Origin: Acidobacteriota bacterium
GTDB taxonomy: Bacteria; Acidobacteriota; Aminicenantia; JBFLYD01
DNA length: 34,557 nucleotides
Direction: 5' to 3'
Assembly (NCBI GenBank): GCA_040756905.1
Contig: JBFLYD010000022.1
Coordinates: 55,014-89,570, forward strand
Of the stretch, positions 9,383-34,557 are shown piece after piece (the stretch's first letter is position 1; each line of letters opens with the position of its first letter). Made by a program: the position numbers and the translations under genes. Below the pieces are notes generated by a model. That model was not told the DNA's origin. It ran no database searches and saw only the letters and a list, made by a program, of their open reading frames with translations.

Positions 9383-11383
9383 TTAACTAGCTTTTTTAGA
9401 ATCTCTATAAACCCAGATAGATAAAAGAACAAAAAATATCAAACTTAAAATTTCTCCGTAATCTGTAAACCATTGATAGGGGGTCCCTTCAATCCATCTT
9501 CCATCGCTGAAAATAACAGGAACTCCTATGGATAAAACTCTATCAGCATTAAAAAGCTTTAAAACTGCTCCGATAATTCCCATTAATGCACCACCTGCAA
9601 TAAATCCAGAAGCAATTAACGTTCCCCTTTCTTTTCTCTTTTCAGATGTATCTTTTTCCTTTGATGACTTTCCTACAAGATAAGAGACAAGACCTCCGAT
9701 GAATAATGGAGTATTCAATTCAAGAGGAATGTACATACCCAAAGCAAAAGCAAGGGCAGGGACTTTTGACATCTCTATTAGTAAAGCAACGACTCCGCCA
9801 GTACCGTATAAAATCCAGGTGATCGGCTCTTTTGCCATTAATGAAGAGATTATCGCTGCCATCAAATTTGCTTGAGGTGCTGGAAGTATACCACTTTTAA
9901 ATGAATAAGTTTTTTCAAGCAAAAATATGGCAATTCCCACAACCAATGCAGCTATAAGAGTCCCAGAAAACTTATATCTTTCCTGATTCCTTGGTGTAGC
10001 TCCGAGCCAGTATCCTATCTTCAGATCTGTGATAAAACTTCCTGAAATGGAAAGAGCTGTGCAAACAACTCCACCGATTAGAAGAGCAACAGCCATGCCT
10101 TCCTTTCCAGAAAGACCAGCTCCAATCAATACCACAGAACTGATTATCAGTGTAACAAGAGTCATTCCTGAGACCGGGTTTGTTCCAACTATAGCTATTG
10201 CATAGGCAGCAACAGTTGTAAAGAGAAAACTAAGAATCACACAGATTAAAACGCCTAAAATTGCTATTTTTGGGTTTGATAGATGGTTAAAGAAAAAGAA
10301 AATCGAAATTGAAGCAATAATTAAACCTATTAAAATTGTTGACATCTTCAGATCAACGTTTGTTCTTTCAGTAAAACTTTCCTTCTTTCTGCGCTTAAAA
10401 ATTTCTTTTATTCCCAGAGAAAAAGCATTGATGAGAATCGGCAGAGATTTTATTATGCTAATAAATCCAGCAGTAGCAATTGCTCCTATTCCGATTTTTT
10501 GAACGTAACTTTTAAAAATCAGAGTCTCATTCATCAAAGAAATTGGTATAGTTCCTGGAAACACAGGCTCTGGGAGAAATTTTCCTAAATACCATATAAG
10601 AGGAATGAACACAAAAGTTGAAAGAAGGCTTCCAGCCAGTATGACGGCAGAATATCGAAGTCCCACTATATAACCAAGCCCAAAAATAGCGGCTAAAGCA
10701 TCTATTTTAAGCATCATTCTTGCTTTTTCTGAAAGCTTTCTCCCAAATTCTACCCACTGAAAAGTTATCATCTCATTCCATAATTTCATCGATGTGGAAA
10801 GAAAATCATAAACTCCTCCTACAATCATGCTAACTACTAAAACTTTTGCTTGAGCTCCTCCAGCCTCTCCTGCTACTAAAATTTCTGTTGTGGCTGTTGC
10901 TTCTGGAAAAGGGAGCTTTCCGTGCTGTCCCATGCAGAAAAATTTTCTAAGGGGGATCAGGAAAAAGACTCCGAGGCAACCACCAAGAAACGAAGCTAAA
11001 AAAATGTAAGAAAATTTTGCATCCAGATCAAGAATGAACAAAGCAGGAGTTGTAAATATTGCTCCAGCAACCACAGCTCCTGATGCAGAGCCAATCGATT
11101 GAATAATGACATTTTCCAGGATTGTGCTTTTTCTCTTAAACCAGTTTGCAAAACCAACAGCAAGAATAGCAATCGGAATCGCAGCTTCAAAGACCTGACC
11201 AACTTTCAAACCAAGATAGGATGCTGAAAAAGTAAAAAATAGAGACATTATAAGACCCAATGTAACTGAACGGATGCTTATCTCATGAATTAATGATTCA
11301 GAAGGGACATAAGATATATATTTCTCTCCTGGCTTAAGCTCCCTGTATGCTTCTGGAGGTAAACCTTTTTTCTTGTTTTCCAT
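9383..11383 (-). CDS. OPT-family oligopeptide transporter
   Basis: A 666-residue inner-membrane protein of the oligopeptide transporter (OPT) family, which imports peptides or metal-peptide complexes using the ion gradient. It has many long hydrophobic segments (about 14-16) from residue 40 to the C-terminus. Family-like stretches include the N-terminal NVIIQSIGSASG, TNPVSGMT in the middle, DLKIGYWLGATPRNQ and GGLVSYLVGKSS near the end. ATG 11383 has AAGGAG 3-4 nt upstream. It would supply substrate to the M29 and other peptidases nearby. The exact substrate is unknown. Confidence 0.88.
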   Translation of the reverse strand: MENKKKGLPPEAYRELKPGEKYISYVPSESLIHEISIRSVTLGLIMSLFFTFSASYLGLKVGQVFEAAIPIAILAVGFANWFKRKSTILENVIIQSIGSASGAVVAGAIFTTPALFILDLDAKFSYIFLASFLGGCLGVFFLIPLRKFFCMGQHGKLPFPEATATTEILVAGEAGGAQAKVLVVSMIVGGVYDFLSTSMKLWNEMITFQWVEFGRKLSEKARMMLKIDALAAIFGLGYIVGLRYSAVILAGSLLSTFVFIPLIWYLGKFLPEPVFPGTIPISLMNETLIFKSYVQKIGIGAIATAGFISIIKSLPILINAFSLGIKEIFKRRKKESFTERTNVDLKMSTILIGLIIASISIFFFFNHLSNPKIAILGVLICVILSFLFTTVAAYAIAIVGTNPVSGMTLVTLIISSVVLIGAGLSGKEGMAVALLIGGVVCTALSISGSFITDLKIGYWLGATPRNQERYKFSGTLIAALVVGIAIFLLEKTYSFKSGILPAPQANLMAAIISSLMAKEPITWILYGTGGVVALLIEMSKVPALAFALGMYIPLELNTPLFIGGLVSYLVGKSSKEKDTSEKRKERGTLIASGFIAGGALMGIIGAVLKLFNADRVLSIGVPVIFSDGRWIEGTPYQWFTDYGEILSLIFFVLLSIWVYRDSKKAS

Positions 11384-27025: not shown

Positions 27026-27343
27026 ATGAATAAAAAAATATCAACAGATAACGATGCTAAGAAGATTACAATCATCGGAATAGCTTTAAACATAATCCTT
27101 ATCATTTTTAAGTTTATTGCAGGAATATTCGGAACAAGTAAAGCAATGATCGCAGATGCTTTTCACTCAACCTCTGATTTAATCGCAGATGTAATTGTGC
27201 TTTTTGGGTTGAAAGTCTCATCAAAGCCAAGGGATGAGGCTCATCATTATGGACACGGAAAAGTTGACTCATTAGTTTCCCTTTTTATAGGAATTATATT
27301 AATAGTGTTATTAGCTGGTTTAATCGTCAATTCTTATACATAA
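27026..27343 (+). pseudogene. Truncated cation diffusion facilitator (N-terminal third only)
   Basis: The 105-residue frame matches the first two or three transmembrane segments of a CDF zinc/iron/manganese exporter, including the metal-site motif ADAFHSTSDLIAD and the following PRDEAHHYGHGKVDSL. CDF proteins are about 290-400 residues. Here the match ends near FIGIILIV and the frame stops soon after, where IS21 remnant sequence begins. The missing C-terminal part is not found downstream. It is probably non-functional. No strong ribosome-binding site precedes the ATG. Confidence 0.82.
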
Positions 27344-27350
27344 AAAACAG

Positions 27351-27563
27351 GTCAATGAGACGCTCTTTGTCTCAGCAGCATCTTTAATAAATGACCTTGC
27401 AAAAGCAAATGAAGAAAGATGCCTTGAAAGTAGACTGAAGTTTTACTCCCAGATGAGACTTTTAATTGTTGATGAGATAGGTTATGTACCGATTGACCGA
27501 TATGGAGCAAACTTATTCTTTTTTTATTGCATATCTTCCATCCATTGGAAATTCGGATATTGA
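27351..27563 (+). pseudogene. IS21-family IstB ATPase fragment
   Basis: Translation from 27351 gives an internal piece of IstB, the AAA+ helper of IS21 transposases: LFVSAASLINDLAKA, then the Walker B strand LLIVDEIGYVPID, then RYGANLFF. The match ends near 27512; the frame runs on to a TGA at 27561 without family similarity. The N-terminal Walker A region and the C-terminus are absent. It begins right after the broken CDF gene, so an IS21 element probably caused that break and then decayed. Confidence 0.8.
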
Positions 27564-27635
27564 TCTTATCTTTCCTTTTATAATCCCATACTCCATAAAA
27601 GGATAACTCATGAGTTTAATATTTATATCCTGTCT
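27513..27635 (-). pseudogene. HlyD-like membrane fusion protein, C-terminal fragment
   Basis: On the minus strand a frame ends with TAA at 27513-27515 and reads QDINIKL, then YPFMEYGIIKGKIRSI, then EFPMDGRYAIKKE. This pattern resembles the beta-barrel region of HlyD-type periplasmic adaptor proteins of ABC exporters (NIKL..YP..EYG..KGKV.SIS). The rest of the gene is missing: the match stops at 27635, exactly where the inverted-repeat element at 27636 begins. Its strand agrees with the ABC-2 locus further right. The call rests on a short stretch. Confidence 0.5.
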
Positions 27636-28095: not shown

Positions 28096-29157
28096 TCATT
28101 TCTTTAGGGAAATCGAATACTTGCATAGATCCATCGTCCTGGCAAAATCAAGGATATATAAGGATTCTTCATCTAATAAAAAGCTCCAAAAAATACCTGG
28201 TACATCAAAACTATCGAGATAGATGCCATCATTGGTGTACCTTTCAATTGTACTACTTTTTGCATCCTCCAGTAAATAATTATTGCCCAATAATATGTAT
28301 ATTATTCCATCATATGCGAAAATGTCTAAAGTTTCAAAGCTTTCGGCAAAAAATCCTCCATGCCCCGTTCCGCTCTCTTCTTCCTCCCACTCCCACCTCC
28401 AAGTATATTTGGCACTGTATGGCCTCTTTCGGCTAAATTCCAATAATAAAGTACCCTGCGTATCATATTTTTGCACCAAGTTTCTATAAAAATAGGTAAC
28501 GTAAATGTATTGTTCTGAATCAATTGTTATCACATTCTTATTCAAAGCGTTTTGCAATAGAAAATTTTCATACTTTTTTATTTGGCCAAACGAAGTCAGC
28601 AATTCACCGGTCTGCGTATATTTATAAATCAAAGCAGTATCAGGCTTAGTCACTGACGCAAAAATATTACCCTCTTTATCTACCACAATACTGGATACAT
28701 TCTTCCTTACTTTAAAACTTAAAATGAACTCACCAGTGAGGGATAGAATTTGAATGCGTGCATTACCAGTATCTGCTACATAGATTTTATCATTATCATC
28801 AATAAAAATATCAGATGGTTTCATAAATTCCCCTGGACCTTCCCCTTTCCTACCAAGGCTCAAAATAACTTGACCATTTGGATTAATTTTCTGAATTCTA
28901 TTATTACCAGAATCGAGCACATAAATATTTTTTAAGCTATCCAATGCTAAAGCTTTTGGTTCGAAGAAAATCTTTGATTGATCCGTTTCCTTTAGGCCGC
29001 CAATTGCCCAGATTTGATTTAATTCGACTTTCTTTCTCGAGTCTTTTTCCCATAAACCTTTTTTTGTATTTGTAACTACGTGAGGAAGTGATTCTTTTGA
29101 TTTATTGCTGCAACTGTTTATTAGCAAGATAATCAATAAGCATAGAAGAATTTTCAC
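28096..29157 (-). CDS. Lipoprotein with six-bladed beta-propeller (NHL-type repeats)
   Basis: Predicted 353-residue lipoprotein. From the GTG at 29157 the N-terminus is MKILLCLLIILLINSC, an ideal lipobox signal with GGAGG 8 nt upstream; the in-frame ATG at 29172 would put that site inside the gene. The body contains repeated NHL-like blades, such as DSLKNIYVLDSGNNRIQKIN and DDNDKIYVADTGNARIQIL. This kind of six-bladed propeller is common in secreted proteins of Bacteroidota and Acidobacteria-like groups and usually binds ligands or proteins. No enzyme motif is seen. The next gene upstream is another repeat lipoprotein, 42 nt away. Confidence 0.78.
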   Translation of the reverse strand: MKILLCLLIILLINSCSNKSKESLPHVVTNTKKGLWEKDSRKKVELNQIWAIGGLKETDQSKIFFEPKALALDSLKNIYVLDSGNNRIQKINPNGQVILSLGRKGEGPGEFMKPSDIFIDDNDKIYVADTGNARIQILSLTGEFILSFKVRKNVSSIVVDKEGNIFASVTKPDTALIYKYTQTGELLTSFGQIKKYENFLLQNALNKNVITIDSEQYIYVTYFYRNLVQKYDTQGTLLLEFSRKRPYSAKYTWRWEWEEEESGTGHGGFFAESFETLDIFAYDGIIYILLGNNYLLEDAKSSTIERYTNDGIYLDSFDVPGIFWSFLLDEESLYILDFARTMDLCKYSISLKK

Positions 29158-29199
29158 TTCAGAGACCTCCATTTACAAGGCTCTATGATATTTTCGCTC

Positions 29200-30282
29200 T
29201 TAATTGAGCCAGCGGGAATAGAGGTACCCCTCAAAAGTTTCTTCTTTCCCAATGCGAATTCCACCTCGTCGGCCATCCGTTCCAACAATTAATCTACGGG
29301 GGTTGTTTGGGTCAATATAAAGAACCGAAATAACTTTTCCAATTTCCATTCCATCGTTAAAGCTCAACCAATTATCTCCTCGATCCTTAGAAATCATAAT
29401 TTTGGTATTTAACCCACCAATAATTAGGGTGCTTGGCTTGATTGGATTAACTATCAGACAGTTCATCCGAATCGCATCGGCATCAGGCAAAGTTTTTTTC
29501 CCCCATGTTTTACCGTTGTCTAAAGATACATAAAGATAGCCATCAAGTGTCTCAATATAAATAGAGCTATCGTACGGGCTAATTTGACAAAACTTTCCAG
29601 AATGATCTAACAGAATTTTCCGCCATTTATTCCCTGAATCTTCAGAAAACAAAATACCTTTAGAAGTTACTACAAAGATTATATCAGGACGATTTTGATC
29701 TAATACGATATAATAGACATCATAATCGATTTTGGCATTTGTTCTGAACCAAGCCTTGCCATTATCTCTGGATTCAAACAAACCGAGAACTGTACCGAGA
29801 AAAATTCTCTTCGAATTGTTTGGATCAAATGCAATATCATAAATGCCCGGTTCCTCTTTTAGGAGGAGTCGTTGAAAGGGTGATAACTCGCGATTGGGAA
29901 AATAGTCTATTTTGCTCCATGTTTGTCCACCATCGAAAGTTTGATAGAGTGTACTTTGCGGTCCCTTTGGATTGTAAGACGCTGCCAGCATTCTTTTAGG
30001 GTTAGTTGGATCAATATCCAAAGCACGTATCTTTCCTTTCTCTTTCATTAAATATTGAAATTTCTTTTCTTTTTCCTGATACTGAATTATTCCATCTTCA
30101 GTGGTAACGTAAATGATGCCGCTAAAGCCTTTTGGAATTTTTACCAAATTAACACCAAAAAATGGCCCTCCTATTTTCTCCCATTTATTTTCATCCATGC
30201 AGTGTAGGAAACATGAAATCAGTAGTACAGATGTAACGGTTGCAAAAAGTAAAGATTCAACCTTCAAGGTAAAACTATTCAT
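29200..30282 (-). CDS. Lipoprotein with BNR/Asp-box beta-propeller repeats
   Basis: A 360-residue exported protein; LISC after the hydrophobic N-terminus is an acceptable lipobox. At least five Asp-box turns are visible: FDGGQTW, RDNGKAW, EDSGNKW, LDNGKTW and KDRGDNW. Such repeats build sortilin/sialidase-like or YCF48-like propellers; no sialidase catalytic set is evident. The ribosome-binding region is GAGGAGGAG directly before the ATG. It is probably co-transcribed with the NHL-type lipoprotein and sits in the same envelope-oriented block as the ABC-2 genes. Confidence 0.75.
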   Translation of the reverse strand: MNSFTLKVESLLFATVTSVLLISCFLHCMDENKWEKIGGPFFGVNLVKIPKGFSGIIYVTTEDGIIQYQEKEKKFQYLMKEKGKIRALDIDPTNPKRMLAASYNPKGPQSTLYQTFDGGQTWSKIDYFPNRELSPFQRLLLKEEPGIYDIAFDPNNSKRIFLGTVLGLFESRDNGKAWFRTNAKIDYDVYYIVLDQNRPDIIFVVTSKGILFSEDSGNKWRKILLDHSGKFCQISPYDSSIYIETLDGYLYVSLDNGKTWGKKTLPDADAIRMNCLIVNPIKPSTLIIGGLNTKIMISKDRGDNWLSFNDGMEIGKVISVLYIDPNNPRRLIVGTDGRRGGIRIGKEETFEGYLYSRWLN

Positions 30283-30422
30283 CTCCTCCTCGATTGATTA
30301 TACCTCAGATAAAAATTAATTTAAATCGTTCATCAGTTTTTTCAAATCATTCTAAATCAGAAGAGAAAGTGCCTGGCAAAATTGACGGGGAAATGATTAA
30401 CCAGCGTCGCTTCGCTCCTATA

Positions 30423-30466
30423 GGTGGCCGGTTTCGTTCGGAATCAGTGGCCAGATTCATCGGAAT
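30423..30466. repeat. Tandem repeats resembling an IS21 terminus
   Basis: Two adjacent units, GGTGGCCGG...TCGGAAT (30423-30444) and AGTGGCCAG...TCGGAAT (30446-30466), lie in a locally GC-richer patch (about 30371-30470) of an otherwise AT-rich 292-bp gap. Tandem TGGCC/CGGAAT repeats of this sort are found at IS21-family ends. With the IstB fragment at 27351 it may mark the far side of the same old insertion or rearrangement. Confidence 0.5.
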
Positions 30467-30574
30467 ATGCAATTTTCTGAAGAATCCAAACATAACTGGG
30501 ATAAATTCATTTTTAAATCTTATCTCTTCTTAATAAAAATCTTACAATGGCAGGTTCTCTTATAAAATTGAGAG

Positions 30575-31927
30575 CTACCTAACATCAGCCTTTTGAATTA
30601 CAAAATTTGATAATATTAAGAAAAGTGGGAAGTAAAAAAACAAGATAAAAATAAAAGGATAATTAGAAGAGATTCTCTCTGAAAGCTTTTTATTCTTAAA
30701 AGTAAAAAATGGACGATCAGAAAGATCCAATCTATCATTTACACTAAAGTTCGGATTTTTTCTCAATTGTCCTGCATATTTTCTCTTGACATAGCTCCAA
30801 AAAATGTTATCGAAACTGTCTTTTTGCTTATTATATTCTTCCACACTATCTAAACCGGTGGATGATATTTCTGTTACAAGGTAAATAAACGAAGGTATCG
30901 GCGATAATATTGATGATACCCACTTAGTTATTTTGACCTGATATTTTGTTTTCCTTTTATAATTAGTAACTATTTCAGATCTCTTTTTACTATATTTTTT
31001 CTTAATTTTCTCAATTCCCGCAAGCTTGTGAATCTCTGACTCTGGCATTTTGACATTACTAATGTAGTAAGGTCTTAGAGCCCTTTGAATCTCACCTTGT
31101 CTTTCTTTCTCTAACTGCGCTAATTGATGGTCTATAATATCGGGAGATGAGATTTTGTACACCTTTGTGCTAATATAGGAGCTTAAAGTGGGAGATATCA
31201 AGATAAAAAATGCCCAGAAAAAAAGGGATATCAATATAGATCGGAAAGAATTCAGTGCAAGAATAGATATAAATACACCTATGCAATAAAATATGCTTAG
31301 ATAAAGAATAGAAAAGATCACAATAAAAAGGATAGCGTACCAGTGCTGGGATTCTAAATTTATTTTGGTCCCCAAGACTAATATTATTAGCCCTGTTAAG
31401 AAAGAGGGAAGGAATATCATAATCGAAATGGTGAGCATTCCTCCTAACCACTTTGACAAGAAGAGGGTATTGCGTCTCAAAGAGTTTGATAATACTAATG
31501 GCAATGTTCTCCCCTCTTTCTCAGTTGAAATGGTATCATAAGAAAAAAGGATTGCCATTAAACTTAGAAGAGTTGAAATCACAAATAATGGATCAAAATT
31601 CTGATAAAGTAAAGAAATTGAATCCATATCCAATGACTCTATTTCAATATTTTCATCAAAACCTTTCGCAAAGATACTGAGAGCAGAAGGGGATTTTAAC
31701 TTGGTAATTATTAATCCTCCTATATCATTAATATTAGCGTGAGAATCCAACGCTTGATTTTGAAGTTTTGTCCTTTCTTTATAAGTATGAAATCTGTTCT
31801 GATAATCCCTTTCTGAAACTACCATTGAGACAATCATTACTAAAAAACATAGCATAGCACCAATTGTAAATCTGAGATTTAATATGTTGGTTAATGCTTC
31901 TTTCTTAACTATATGCCAAAACATCAT
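30575..31927 (-). CDS. ABC-2-type permease with large extracytoplasmic loop (DUF3526-like)
   Basis: A 450-residue inner-membrane protein. One transmembrane helix lies near residue 25-40, then a long loop, then a cluster of five helices at about 110-260 with the ABC-2 signature FSYDTISTEKEGRTL. A second large charged loop (about 265-400) and a final helix follow. This plan matches NatB/NosY-like ABC-2 permeases with DUF3526-type insertions. The signature shared with the next protein (FDAICREKENGTLKMAL) marks them as paralogues, probably one heterodimer. They need an ATPase, which is not in the window. It starts 11 nt after the upstream permease gene. Confidence 0.78.
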   Translation of the reverse strand: MMFWHIVKKEALTNILNLRFTIGAMLCFLVMIVSMVVSERDYQNRFHTYKERTKLQNQALDSHANINDIGGLIITKLKSPSALSIFAKGFDENIEIESLDMDSISLLYQNFDPLFVISTLLSLMAILFSYDTISTEKEGRTLPLVLSNSLRRNTLFLSKWLGGMLTISIMIFLPSFLTGLIILVLGTKINLESQHWYAILFIVIFSILYLSIFYCIGVFISILALNSFRSILISLFFWAFFILISPTLSSYISTKVYKISSPDIIDHQLAQLEKERQGEIQRALRPYYISNVKMPESEIHKLAGIEKIKKKYSKKRSEIVTNYKRKTKYQVKITKWVSSILSPIPSFIYLVTEISSTGLDSVEEYNKQKDSFDNIFWSYVKRKYAGQLRKNPNFSVNDRLDLSDRPFFTFKNKKLSERISSNYPFIFILFFYFPLFLILSNFVIQKADVR

Positions 31928-31938
31928 AAAGATATAAC

Positions 31939-33177
31939 CTATCGAAGATCGTATTTATTGAAGGATGCAATAAACCCTGTAAAGAAAATAGAAAAATAAA
32001 TAGTTAGGATAATTAAATCATTGATAATACCATACCCAATTGTTTCGGAAAGTGATGTCCTTTCAAAAAAGAAATCTTCTGTTTTCCCTGTTATTAAATA
32101 TTTTAATGCATTTCTTTCCCTGAATCTCAGAATAAAGTTTTTAAATCTTCTCTCATCTTGGATACTTGTTCTCAGGCTTTTGGTCGTTGCTTCTGTAAGA
32201 CCTCCTACAGGGAATATCCTTCCTATATTCCTTGCAAGATTCGTATAATAATTCAATTTTATTCTAAAATCTTCCTCTAATCTACTTACATTTTCCTGTA
32301 TTTGTAAAAACCCATCATACCCGAGGAAACCAGGATGCTCCTTATTTTTTTCAAATTTAGTCTTTATAAAAGCCCTTATTTTTTCCTCCTCTAATTTATC
32401 AGTAGGGGGAACATTTGCCAAAGCCTTTGCAATCAGAGCTGAAGAATTTGGAGTAACAAAAATGAAAATAGCCCATATCAATAGGACAATGGACATGCTC
32501 TGTGCTGAAGAGTGGAAAAGAGAGGATATGAAAAGACCTAAGGCCAGGAAAATAAGTATATAGATATTTGAAGCTAAAATAAACAATAATAACCTTATCA
32601 ACTCCTCACTTCCTATTGTGAGAATCCCACCTAAATTTAATAAAACAGCTGAAAGAAGAACCAAAAAATTAAATGGGAAAAGGATTATGATTATTTTTCC
32701 TAAAAACTTCGCCAGTATAAAGGAGATTCTCGGTACTTTATTGCAAAGAGCCATCTTTAGGGTGCCGTTCTCTTTTTCTCGACAAATTGCATCAAAAGAG
32801 AGTACGATAGCAATAAGACTCGTGAAAAGCTTGATCACAAATAATAAATCAGGGGTTGTGAAGAGGGATAACAATAAATTTACCTTCTCTTTACGAGAGC
32901 CTACTTGGATCAAAAAACCGTAGCTAAGGTCATAAAGGCGAGATATGTTTTTATCTACACCGGAGACAAATATGCTCAGGGGCTCTGGAGAGACGATTAT
33001 TTCAGAACTGGAATGTGATGAAATATGAGTTTGATAATTTAATAGGCGAGCTTTGTAGTCATCTACTCCTATATAGATTGAACTGATTACAATACCTGTC
33101 AATATGAGCATACAAAATTGAAATCTAAAGCTTAAGAGATCCTCAATAATTTCCTTTTTCAGGATATGTTTTATCAC
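31939..33177 (-). CDS. ABC-2-type permease, paralogue of the adjacent gene
   Basis: A 412-residue inner-membrane protein with the same layout as its neighbour: first helix near residues 20-38, a loop, a cluster of helices at about 115-255 with the motif LSFDAICREKENGTL, a charged loop (about 260-365) and a last helix. Its ATG overlaps the stop of the lipoprotein gene (33174-33177), so the operon is tightly linked. The cargo is unknown; such pairs export lipids, peptides or proteins or act in lipoprotein handling. Confidence 0.78.
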   Translation of the reverse strand: MIKHILKKEIIEDLLSFRFQFCMLILTGIVISSIYIGVDDYKARLLNYQTHISSHSSSEIIVSPEPLSIFVSGVDKNISRLYDLSYGFLIQVGSRKEKVNLLLSLFTTPDLLFVIKLFTSLIAIVLSFDAICREKENGTLKMALCNKVPRISFILAKFLGKIIIILFPFNFLVLLSAVLLNLGGILTIGSEELIRLLLFILASNIYILIFLALGLFISSLFHSSAQSMSIVLLIWAIFIFVTPNSSALIAKALANVPPTDKLEEEKIRAFIKTKFEKNKEHPGFLGYDGFLQIQENVSRLEEDFRIKLNYYTNLARNIGRIFPVGGLTEATTKSLRTSIQDERRFKNFILRFRERNALKYLITGKTEDFFFERTSLSETIGYGIINDLIILTIYFSIFFTGFIASFNKYDLR

Positions 33178-34022
33178 TTACTTTTCGGCTTTTGGAATAA
33201 AGAATCACTCAGGTTTGTATTCACCTCTACTTTTATTACTATGGTCTCCATCTCTTCCTTAAAAGGTCCAATCGACGAAGATCTTTTCGTCTTGCCCTGT
33301 AGCATAAACCCTTCAAGATTAATATAATTTAATATATAATTTTTCAACCTTACTTCGGTAAACCCCATCAACTTTGGTACAGCTACTTCCTCTATTATTG
33401 GGAGATATGAATTGGTATCAATGTAGATGTTAAAATTCCTTTTCTCTCCCCCTTTCGAATGCATCTTAATCACATAATATCTTCCTTCATTTTTTTCTTC
33501 GTATGCTTCGTCAAATTCATATTCTCCTATTGAAAGAAGATATAAGGGTCCCTTTAAACTCGAAATAGAAGCCAATCCTTTCAGTTCTTTTTCTTTTCCC
33601 TCTGAAACATCCTTGATGATATTATTTTCACTCATCCAAGATGAAACCCCATCATAAACCTCGCTTACTAAGGCTTTTGTATTTTTCGCAACAAAATATA
33701 CCTCAGTATCCATTCTGATTTTATCGGGAAATTTATAAAATAGCGTTAAATTAATCTTCTTAGAACCATCGGGTGATTTAGGAATCTCTCGGTAATAGTA
33801 AATGGTTAAATCTTTAAATCTATCAAGCTTATCAATCCCTTTTGCCTTCAATGAAAGCTTAACTATCTCCAATGCTTCCTTTTTCTCAATCTTTTTAATT
33901 ATTCTTGAGAGTATTTGTTCGGATGCTTCCTTTTCCCTGTGATTGGTTTCAGTGGAATTCTGGGAACATGAAATAATAAGTATTAAAAATAAAATCATTA
34001 ATAAAGTCTTAAGATATTTCAT
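33174..34022 (-). CDS. LolA-like outer-membrane lipoprotein-sorting family lipoprotein
   Basis: Predicted 282-residue lipoprotein: MKYLKTLLMILFLILIISC is a strong lipobox signal. Residues 45-280 look like the LolA/LppX-type half-barrel fold used to carry or sense lipids (YKFPDKIRMDT, VYDGVSSWMS, then a NIYIDTNSYLPI strand pair). ATG 34022 has GAGAGG 6 nt upstream; an in-frame ATG at 34043 overlaps the stop of the truncated permease (ATGA) and is also possible. It is the first complete gene of the permease operon and overlaps the next gene by 4 nt. Confidence 0.7.
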   Translation of the reverse strand: MKYLKTLLMILFLILIISCSQNSTETNHREKEASEQILSRIIKKIEKKEALEIVKLSLKAKGIDKLDRFKDLTIYYYREIPKSPDGSKKINLTLFYKFPDKIRMDTEVYFVAKNTKALVSEVYDGVSSWMSENNIIKDVSEGKEKELKGLASISSLKGPLYLLSIGEYEFDEAYEEKNEGRYYVIKMHSKGGEKRNFNIYIDTNSYLPIIEEVAVPKLMGFTEVRLKNYILNYINLEGFMLQGKTKRSSSIGPFKEEMETIVIKVEVNTNLSDSLFQKPKSK

Positions 34023-34039
34023 TTTCCGCCTCTCATCTT

Positions 34040-34222
34040 TCATAATGAAAGTCTCTTTGAGGATATAAGAGCCATAGAAAATGATAAAATAGCAAAAAAC
34101 AGAAGCATCATCAAATCTTTATTCAATAAATATATGTCTTGCAAGAAGAAACCTTTTCTCATGAGATTGCAAGTATAAGTTAAAGGGTTAAATGTTGATA
34201 TAATGCGCCCCTTTGAGGCTTT
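34040..34222 (-). pseudogene. 5'-truncated ABC-2 permease, last 60 codons
   Basis: The minus-strand frame between an in-frame TAG (34223-34225) and the TGA at 34040-34042 encodes FNPLTYTCNLMRKGFF, then one hydrophobic helix (MMLLFFAILSFSMALI) and a basic end. This is how many ABC-2 permeases finish (NPLTY, a short loop, the last helix). The remainder of the gene is absent upstream. It ends in an ATGA overlap with the possible start at 34043, as in an intact operon, so the operon has lost its front part here. Confidence 0.65.
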
Positions 34223-34224
34223 CT

Positions 34225-34253
34225 ATTTAAGCAGTTAGAATTTAATTTGTCAA
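34225..34253 (-). promoter_or_regulatory. Possible promoter of the LolA-like/ABC-2 operon
   Basis: On the minus strand TTGACA (34248-34253), a 17-nt spacer and TTAAAT (34225-34230). It would start transcription near 34218, just inside the truncated permease, and so could still drive the three complete genes downstream. Confidence 0.45.
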
Positions 34254-34490
34254 ATTAATTTCTCAATCAGTTTAGGAAATCAAATACTGAGAGATATATT
34301 AAAAAAGTATTGGATCTGTAGATTGTTTTCTGTAAAGGCTTTATTATCCATTCTAATCTTAAATTTCCCATTTACTAATCACTTTAAATCAACTAAAATA
34401 TGAAATTCAATCTATCCTGAAAAAAGAATGACTTCATGGTGAGGAAAAGAATTAATTGAACCCGAATTACGCAAGGTTTATTGCAACCTA
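34254..34490. other. Non-coding stretch without recognised genes
   Basis: This AT-rich segment is interrupted by stops in the frames examined. I see no RNA gene or protein remnant beyond the promoter-like boxes at its left edge. It separates the broken permease from the terminal hairpin. Confidence 0.5.
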
Positions 34491-34557
34491 TTGGAGGGCA
34501 AGCCTTTAAGTTTGCTTTATATCACCTAACAAGCACGACTAAAGCCCTGCCCTACAA
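34491..34557. repeat. Imperfect inverted repeat at the window edge
   Basis: 34491-34517 (begins TTGGAGGGCAAGCCTTTAAG) pairs with 34531-34557 (ends AAAGCCCTGCCCTACAA) in about 20 of 27 positions, with a 13-nt loop. The right arm ends at the last base of the window, so the element may continue. It resembles a small palindromic or mobile repeat. Confidence 0.55.

Follow-up and report, generated by a model that had tools for sequence, protein, structure and literature searches.

How can a pair of exporter permeases be powered if no gene for an ATP-binding cassette (ABC) ATPase stands beside it? The question is posed by a locus at one end of a 34,557 nt stretch of DNA (G000:C22:55014–89570; the whole stretch is the window hereafter) from an uncultured Aminicenantes-type bacterium, the draft assembly of which is fragmented into 69 contigs. 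The core of the locus lies on the minus strand and comprises three intact open reading frames (ORFs): a LolA-like lipoprotein gene (289 aa; nt 33174–34043), permA (412 aa; nt 31939–33177) and permB (450 aa; nt 30575–31927). The start of permA overlaps the stop of the LolA-like gene by 4 nt, and permB follows permA after 11 nt. The first-pass annotation had described, in a window without an ATPase gene, a LolA-like gene overlapping two permeases, and ORF analysis and profile searches bear this out. Among the window ORFs of at least 50 aa, none matches (at E 0.1) the ABC ATPase encoded on contig C21 of the same genome, nor the NEW3 protein of that genome; an ATPase within the operon, as in NosY-type systems, was thus not seen up to the right edge of the window, where contig C22 terminates, 514 bp beyond the start of the LolA-like gene, leaving the right flank unseen. 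The trio (nt 30575–34043) is tentatively read here as an orphan, rearranged NosY-type ABC-2 exporter module with a LolA-like partner that would receive ATP in trans from C21, a reading to which slightly less than an even chance is given.

Both permeases match the Pfam family ABC2_membrane_2 (PF12679; 1.9e-25 for permA and 3e-24 for permB). The two intact permeases of the first-pass annotation therefore stand; the Pfam matches did not include DUF3526 itself. No FtsX or MacB model was matched by the window permeases up to E 1, Pfam giving ABC2-type families and one chance match (E 0.27). In a search of the PDB, permA matched the NosY profile (E 2.4e-8), and its predicted structure (predicted local distance difference test score, pLDDT, 74; predicted template modelling score 0.77) aligns with NosY over 249 residues with a root-mean-square deviation of 2.6 and 18% identity (VIA-align Z 25.1; Foldseek E 4e-4). 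On this predicted fold, permA is a NosY-like ABC-2 permease.

Relatives of permA were found in 27 of 396 genomes of the phylum at 1e-25 (own genome included) and in 24 of 142 genomes of the class at 1e-40, where up to 12 candidates were scored per genome and each genome had one match except the own genome, which had two. Named genomes, when scanned, yielded 24 loci, and 22 of these belong to Candidatus Aminicenantes or Acidobacteria/Acidobacteriota. A first scan of the genome contigs with permA alone as query found nothing, and a plasmid search returned two records that covered 31–34% of the query. Around full-length matches there is a conserved operon, called canonical here, which encodes a NEW3 adaptor (~500 aa), a CcmA-like ATPase (~240–270 aa) and 2–8 ABC-2 permeases. 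Several canonical loci end at contig edges or have the ATPase on the opposite strand, and in the one case tested a gene for an outer-membrane efflux protein lies upstream. No published description of such a NEW3–ATPase–permease operon was found in the literature searched. A complete canonical copy, with NEW3, ATPase and five permeases, is present in the own genome on C21.

In a tree of 71 permeases (a single search, in which the tree program warned about long rows), permA falls within the clade of A-type permeases of the canonical operon (support 97/94) and permB within the B-type clade (99/98), to which a single long row of a different acidobacterial family also belongs. The window thus carries adjacent A- and B-type permeases in canonical order, at ~32–34% identity to those of the canonical operon. 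When residues invariant in 12 canonical A-type permeases are taken as reference, permA keeps 9 of 11 in the presumed coupling loop but 17 of 40 in its two extracytoplasmic parts (Fisher p 0.04). Overall, permB keeps 58 of 112 invariant residues.

The third member of the trio probably starts at the ATG at nt 34022 and has the lipobox IISC; signal, lipobox and start were judged by eye from the sequence. Taken alone, the 289 aa protein has no Pfam match above chance. It aligns over its full length to a class-wide LolA family (hhalign probability 98.1, E 7.6e-14), of which 17 of the 20 aligned rows, the window protein being among the 20, match LolA_like (PF17131), and so it belongs to the family of the carrier in the LolCDE–LolA system. 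A PDB search with this alignment gave as best match 4z48_A, an uncharacterised protein (E 0.0015), while 3bk5_A, a putative outer membrane lipoprotein-sorting protein, followed at E 0.028; the single-sequence structure of the protein (pLDDT 36) was not used. Relatives occur in 29 of 100 genomes searched (own included), the other 99 being related at class level only. That the gene is simply the normal LolA of this genome was considered and rejected, as most class relatives sit in a different locus, which by the order and length of the neighbouring genes, of which the ATPase alone was matched, we take to be an ordinary Lol/Bam/Lpx locus.

The own genome encodes 11 permeases of the permA/permB family on three contigs and a single close ATPase, that of C21 (the one match at E 1e-60; the next best has 38% identity). 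As a control, the seven other ABC2_membrane_2 permeases found in this genome, two of which score below the curated cut-off, all lie within ~300 bp of an ATPase gene or in its cluster. The imbalance extends to relatives. In 15 genomes hand-picked from the 27 phylum genomes with a permA match (the own genome, 11 others of the class that have an A-type match, and three from family f28), 100 family permeases (E 1e-20, contig-end fragments included) were counted against 23 cognate ATPases (E 1e-60, a threshold that leaves out one partial gene or more, in G015). They are distributed over 43 loci (joined at 8 kb), of which 22 have no cognate ATPase. The distance to contig ends is known for 16 of these 22, and four of the 16 lie at least 8 kb inside; around three of those four (one in G049, two in G119) no ATPase-like ORF was found in the 14–20 kb fetched. 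In G037, an assembly of only 7 contigs, NEW3, A and B genes are consecutive, leaving no room for an ATPase, and the sole cognate ATPase is on another contig. Two ATPase-less permease pairs in G119 (L218 and L123) stand beside genes with M1 peptidase domains, in one case followed by an M14 carboxypeptidase gene.

The lack of an adjacent ATPase therefore seems to be usual for the permA/permB family, which would make supply in trans the simplest reading and, judging from sequence, the leading explanation. With many permeases per ATPase in the relatives, the energy supply of the trio is probably borrowed. There are more membrane modules than ATPases and the modules are scattered, as on the shared-ATPase plan of group II energy-coupling factor (ECF) transporters, with the caveat that loci at contig ends are counted among them. 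The view that the missing ATPase betrays a broken system is unsupported, given that 22 of 43 loci in the 15 chosen genomes are in the same state, subject again to contig-end effects.

How the trio came to its present position can be followed by comparison with a sister copy on contig C51. Two window segments that lie apart, nt 30333–30653 (minus strand) and nt 34230–34557, adjoin there (C51:10603–10918 and 10918–11244; 95% and 97% identity, respectively). The first comprises the final 26 codons of permB, the stop among them, and downstream DNA, and these codons differ between the copies by one silent base. Compared with the window, 3,576 bp are missing from the sister copy: the LolA-like gene and permA are gone, and permB is reduced to those codons. 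Upstream of the trio, nt 34208–34486 correspond (blastn 96–97%) to the intergenic region of a divergent gene pair: the sister copy carries it at C51:10918–11147, and nt 34208–34460 have a third occurrence at C51:16788–17041, flanked by an AraC-GAF gene on one side and the beginning of a GAF-gene copy on the other. The window operon thus adjoins the promoter region of a regulator, and a promoter-containing region at the point of truncation, in line with what had been proposed, is supported. A promoter scan (23 found, 18.4 expected) was given no weight.

Between this region and the LolA-like gene, a 60-codon stop-to-stop frame on the minus strand (nt 34043–34222) may be the C-terminal remnant of a third permease. 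It stays open to within at most 14 nt of the repeated promoter DNA and ranks third, after permA and permB, among window frames of at least 20 aa compared with a hidden Markov model of the permease C-terminus. The truncated permease of the first-pass annotation accordingly has a suggestive C-terminal match, but one that is not significant (E 0.082). The loss of the front end of the module, by rearrangement, is probable, and the sequence comparison suggests that the operon now abuts the AraC/GAF promoter region after recombination cut a preceding permease. Both copies come from one draft assembly, in which mixed strains might account for part of the pattern; simple strain variation is disfavoured because the left flanks differ. 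Since a divergent GAF gene lies beyond the junction in the sister copy, the DNA to the right of the window is predicted not to encode an ATPase. This stays a prediction only, because the last ~102 bp of the window (nt 34457–34557) are a dispersed repeat, with copies on C25, C11 (94%), C47 and C48 (77–78%) among the best 40 of 66 candidates scored.

A link to peptides had also been suggested, and the position of the sister copy supports it. The deleted copy lies ~0.4 kb upstream of, and on the same strand as, a 37 aa Cys-rich precursor-like ORF (L209 10100–10213, minus strand) that heads a thiazole/oxazole-modified microcin (TOMM) cluster on C51. The ORF matches TOMM precursor models weakly (best 2.4e-4, below cut-off). 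Behind it come, in this order, a ThiF-like gene, which matches the SagC model at 1.9e-26 (below cut-off) and Pfam ThiF at 9.2e-9, a SagB-like gene, which is above cut-off (5.5e-38), and a YcaO gene, which matches the SagD model at 2e-49 (below cut-off) and Pfam YcaO at 2.2e-35. This TOMM or linear azol(in)e-containing peptide (LAP) cluster, which occupies nt 2–10213 of L209 (G000:C51:1–20000), has an ABC ATPase and a permease of its own. While TOMM/LAP marker genes (YcaO, ThiF-like, SagB-like) are present beside the sister copy, no window ORF of at least 50 aa matches the YcaO, ThiF, SagB, radical SAM or M16 proteins of the own genome at E 0.1, and neither a peptide precursor nor a maturase turned up there.

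A partial parallel is seen on contig C61, where a LolA-like gene (PF17131 5.4e-11, above cut-off) lies directly 5' of a permease fragment with best match to the C21 A-type permease. The fragment runs into an apparent transposase end at the contig edge (weak rve_2 match, E 0.056). A PqqD-domain gene adjoins the pair, and radical SAM/SPASM and M16 genes are 15–19 kb away on the contig, two of them presumably for M16-like peptidases. The assignment of the C61 protein to LolA comes through Pfam: its hhalign comparison with the class LolA family is not significant (probability 0.7), and its direct similarity to the window protein is weak (E 0.015) in one comparison and without a match in another. 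A second C61 candidate (L010:8454–9395) is marginal (PF17131 E 0.006, below cut-off). Permeases with a LolA-like neighbour are thus found in three settings, namely the radical SAM contig C61, a site next to the TOMM cluster (as a deleted copy) and the window. That the substrate of the trio is a modified peptide or a lipid is a guess.

The C61 locus (L010, G000:C61:18007–38006) also carries NHL propellers, an MsbA-type ABC transporter and ABC-2 permeases. A cassette recurring on both contigs (L209:12975–16777 and L010:10514–13988) consists of an AraC-type regulator, a thioredoxin-like protein (labelled from a weak AhpC/TSA match and by eye), an NHL propeller and Cys-rich peptides of 60–79 aa, which have signal-like N-termini and no Pfam match and occur two in tandem on C61.

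To the left of the trio, a gap of 292 bp separates permB from two propeller lipoprotein genes on the minus strand, a BNR/sortilin-like one (nt 29200–30282; PF15902, 2.7e-23) and a six-bladed NHL propeller (nt 28096–29172; PF01436, 5.9e-14). The latter has relatives among the NHL genes in the peptide clusters of C51 and C61 (8.2e-32 to the C51 protein). Both genes are real, as first annotated, but their inclusion in the exporter unit was rejected: a mobile-element end intervenes and the match with the sister copy ends at nt 30333, so they probably do not belong with the permeases. The intervening remnant (74 bp; nt 30402–30475) occurs in at least 20 other places besides C51 at 87–92% identity, with 18 further matches at ~80%, among the best 40 of 107 candidates scored. 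Eleven of 20 strong copies lie 55–60 bp from contig starts, which points to a multi-copy mobile element that probably breaks the assembly. The HlyD-like fragment reported farther left (nt 27516–27629) is unconfirmed, having no Pfam match up to E 10, and is adjoined by an IstB/IS21 fragment (PF01695, 2.5e-10; nt 27342–27560, plus strand). The IstB/IS21 fragment follows a truncated cation efflux gene (PF01545, 105 aa; nt 27026–27343, plus strand), apparently cut by the insertion element.

Taken as an exporter module, the trio would work as follows. The permA and permB proteins would each contribute one membrane half of a pair, with the LolA-like lipoprotein as the periplasmic partner that receives a hydrophobic substrate, a modified peptide or a lipid, from them. 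ATP would be hydrolysed by the single close ATPase of the family, that encoded on C21 with the NEW3 adaptor and five permeases. The module probably used to follow at least one more permease, where recombination cut, and would now lie under the promoter region of the AraC/GAF regulator. A second copy would have headed the TOMM cluster and later lost all but the final 26 codons of permB.

Several observations weigh against this proposal. The pairing of two permeases with a LolA-like lipoprotein, the recurrence of which had been suggested as a check, was not seen elsewhere: no LolA-like gene was found beside the 23 A-type permeases of other class genomes. The upstream neighbour can be seen in 20 of these loci, where it is a permease, the ATPase (once read as a single frame with the permease) or NEW3; in three (L091, L234 and L237) that gene is cut off. 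A LolA-family profile found no member when run on the ORFs around A-type permeases in 45 loci, a set in which some places are represented twice and 12 loci have no more than 1.5 kb of flanking DNA. As the unit was not found elsewhere in the 142 class genomes, and no LolA-like gene was seen beside other A-type permeases, the trio is, within the genomes searched, confined to this lineage. The service of the C21 ATPase to permA and permB would be an indirect link, drawn from sequence. Many of the ATPase-less loci may be assembly cuts, since 12 of the 16 placed ones are near contig ends and six of the 22 are unplaced, and G037 does have an ABC ATPase of lower similarity (103 bits), ~3.7 kb upstream and beyond two opposite-strand genes. 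The putative coupling loop of permA (9 of 11) does not differ significantly from all the rest of the protein (48 of 88; p 0.11), and the branches of permA (1.46) and permB (1.24) are long compared with those of the C21 copies (0.40 and 0.46), as would be expected under either relaxed constraint or specialisation.

The long branches, the possible truncated permease with a recombination junction upstream, the deletion of the sister copy and the mobile-element remnants on the left would also suit a decaying remnant, in which the trio is the rearranged leftover of a longer exporter operon, open but non-functional. This is judged rather unlikely, as three long overlapping or closely spaced frames have stayed free of stops, the coupling-type loop of permA is better kept than its extracytoplasmic parts, and the rearrangement has put the operon beside a promoter-containing region. 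Much less probable is an ordinary complete ABC exporter with its ATPase just past the contig end. The LolA-like gene does begin only 514 bp from the contig end, and canonical relatives have the ATPase upstream of the A/B pair, but the last 335 bp of the window contain no frame longer than 54 codons, the sister-copy region runs into a divergent GAF gene, and the sole close ATPase of the genome is on C21. Equally improbable is a Lol-like device for sorting lipoproteins or lipids, unrelated to peptides, with the LolA-like protein as carrier. The membership of the lipoprotein in the LolA family favours it, as does an export cluster in Borrelia with a LolA-like protein and an ABC transporter (PMC13078400), but the permeases of the trio are of NosY/ABC-2 rather than LolC/E type, most class relatives of the lipoprotein are in the different locus already mentioned (by gene order that of an ordinary Lol system), and the C51 sister copy and C61 parallel are in or near peptide clusters.

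As an orphan exporter module, the trio resembles several known systems in part. In NosDFY, the NosY permease works with the NosF ATPase and the periplasmic NosD (PDB 7o0y, 7znq), and the permA model is like NosY; the trio differs in having two different permeases, larger extracytoplasmic insertions, a LolA-like protein in place of NosD and no ATPase in its operon as far as seen. With the canonical Aminicenantia operon permA and permB group through its A- and B-type permeases, but the window lacks the NEW3 and ATPase genes, carries a LolA-like gene and is divergent in sequence. LolCDE–LolA and Borrelia BBJ26–BBJ28 (PMC13078400) likewise encode a LolA-like protein with permease genes, and for the latter the hand-over of a non-polar ligand is proposed there; unlike the trio, their permeases are described in that source as MacB/LolE-type with an ATP-binding protein of their own. 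In the group II ECF transporters one ATPase serves several membrane modules, and MsmK (PMC4519317) and MceG (PMC9947336) are reported to do likewise. All of these are importers, whereas the modules here are of ABC-2 exporter type and their sharing would follow from gene counts.

A wider conjecture, which we consider doubtful as a whole, is that an ECF-like network of ABC-2 exporters operates in Aminicenantia as well as in at least one further acidobacterial family, in which one or two ATPases would serve many scattered, interchangeable permease pairs. The trio would then be a specialised exit, its LolA-like lipoprotein replacing the adaptor and handing over the product of a peptide cluster, and the module would have been moved between clusters by recombination. 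ABC exporters without an adjacent ATPase are easily annotated as broken. The most interesting part of the present findings is the family-wide excess of permeases, which outnumber ATPases by ~4:1 in the 15 sampled genomes and so open the sharing of ATPases by exporters to direct tests. Beside a TOMM cluster, the footprint of the same module hints at what one such module may serve in this uncultured group.

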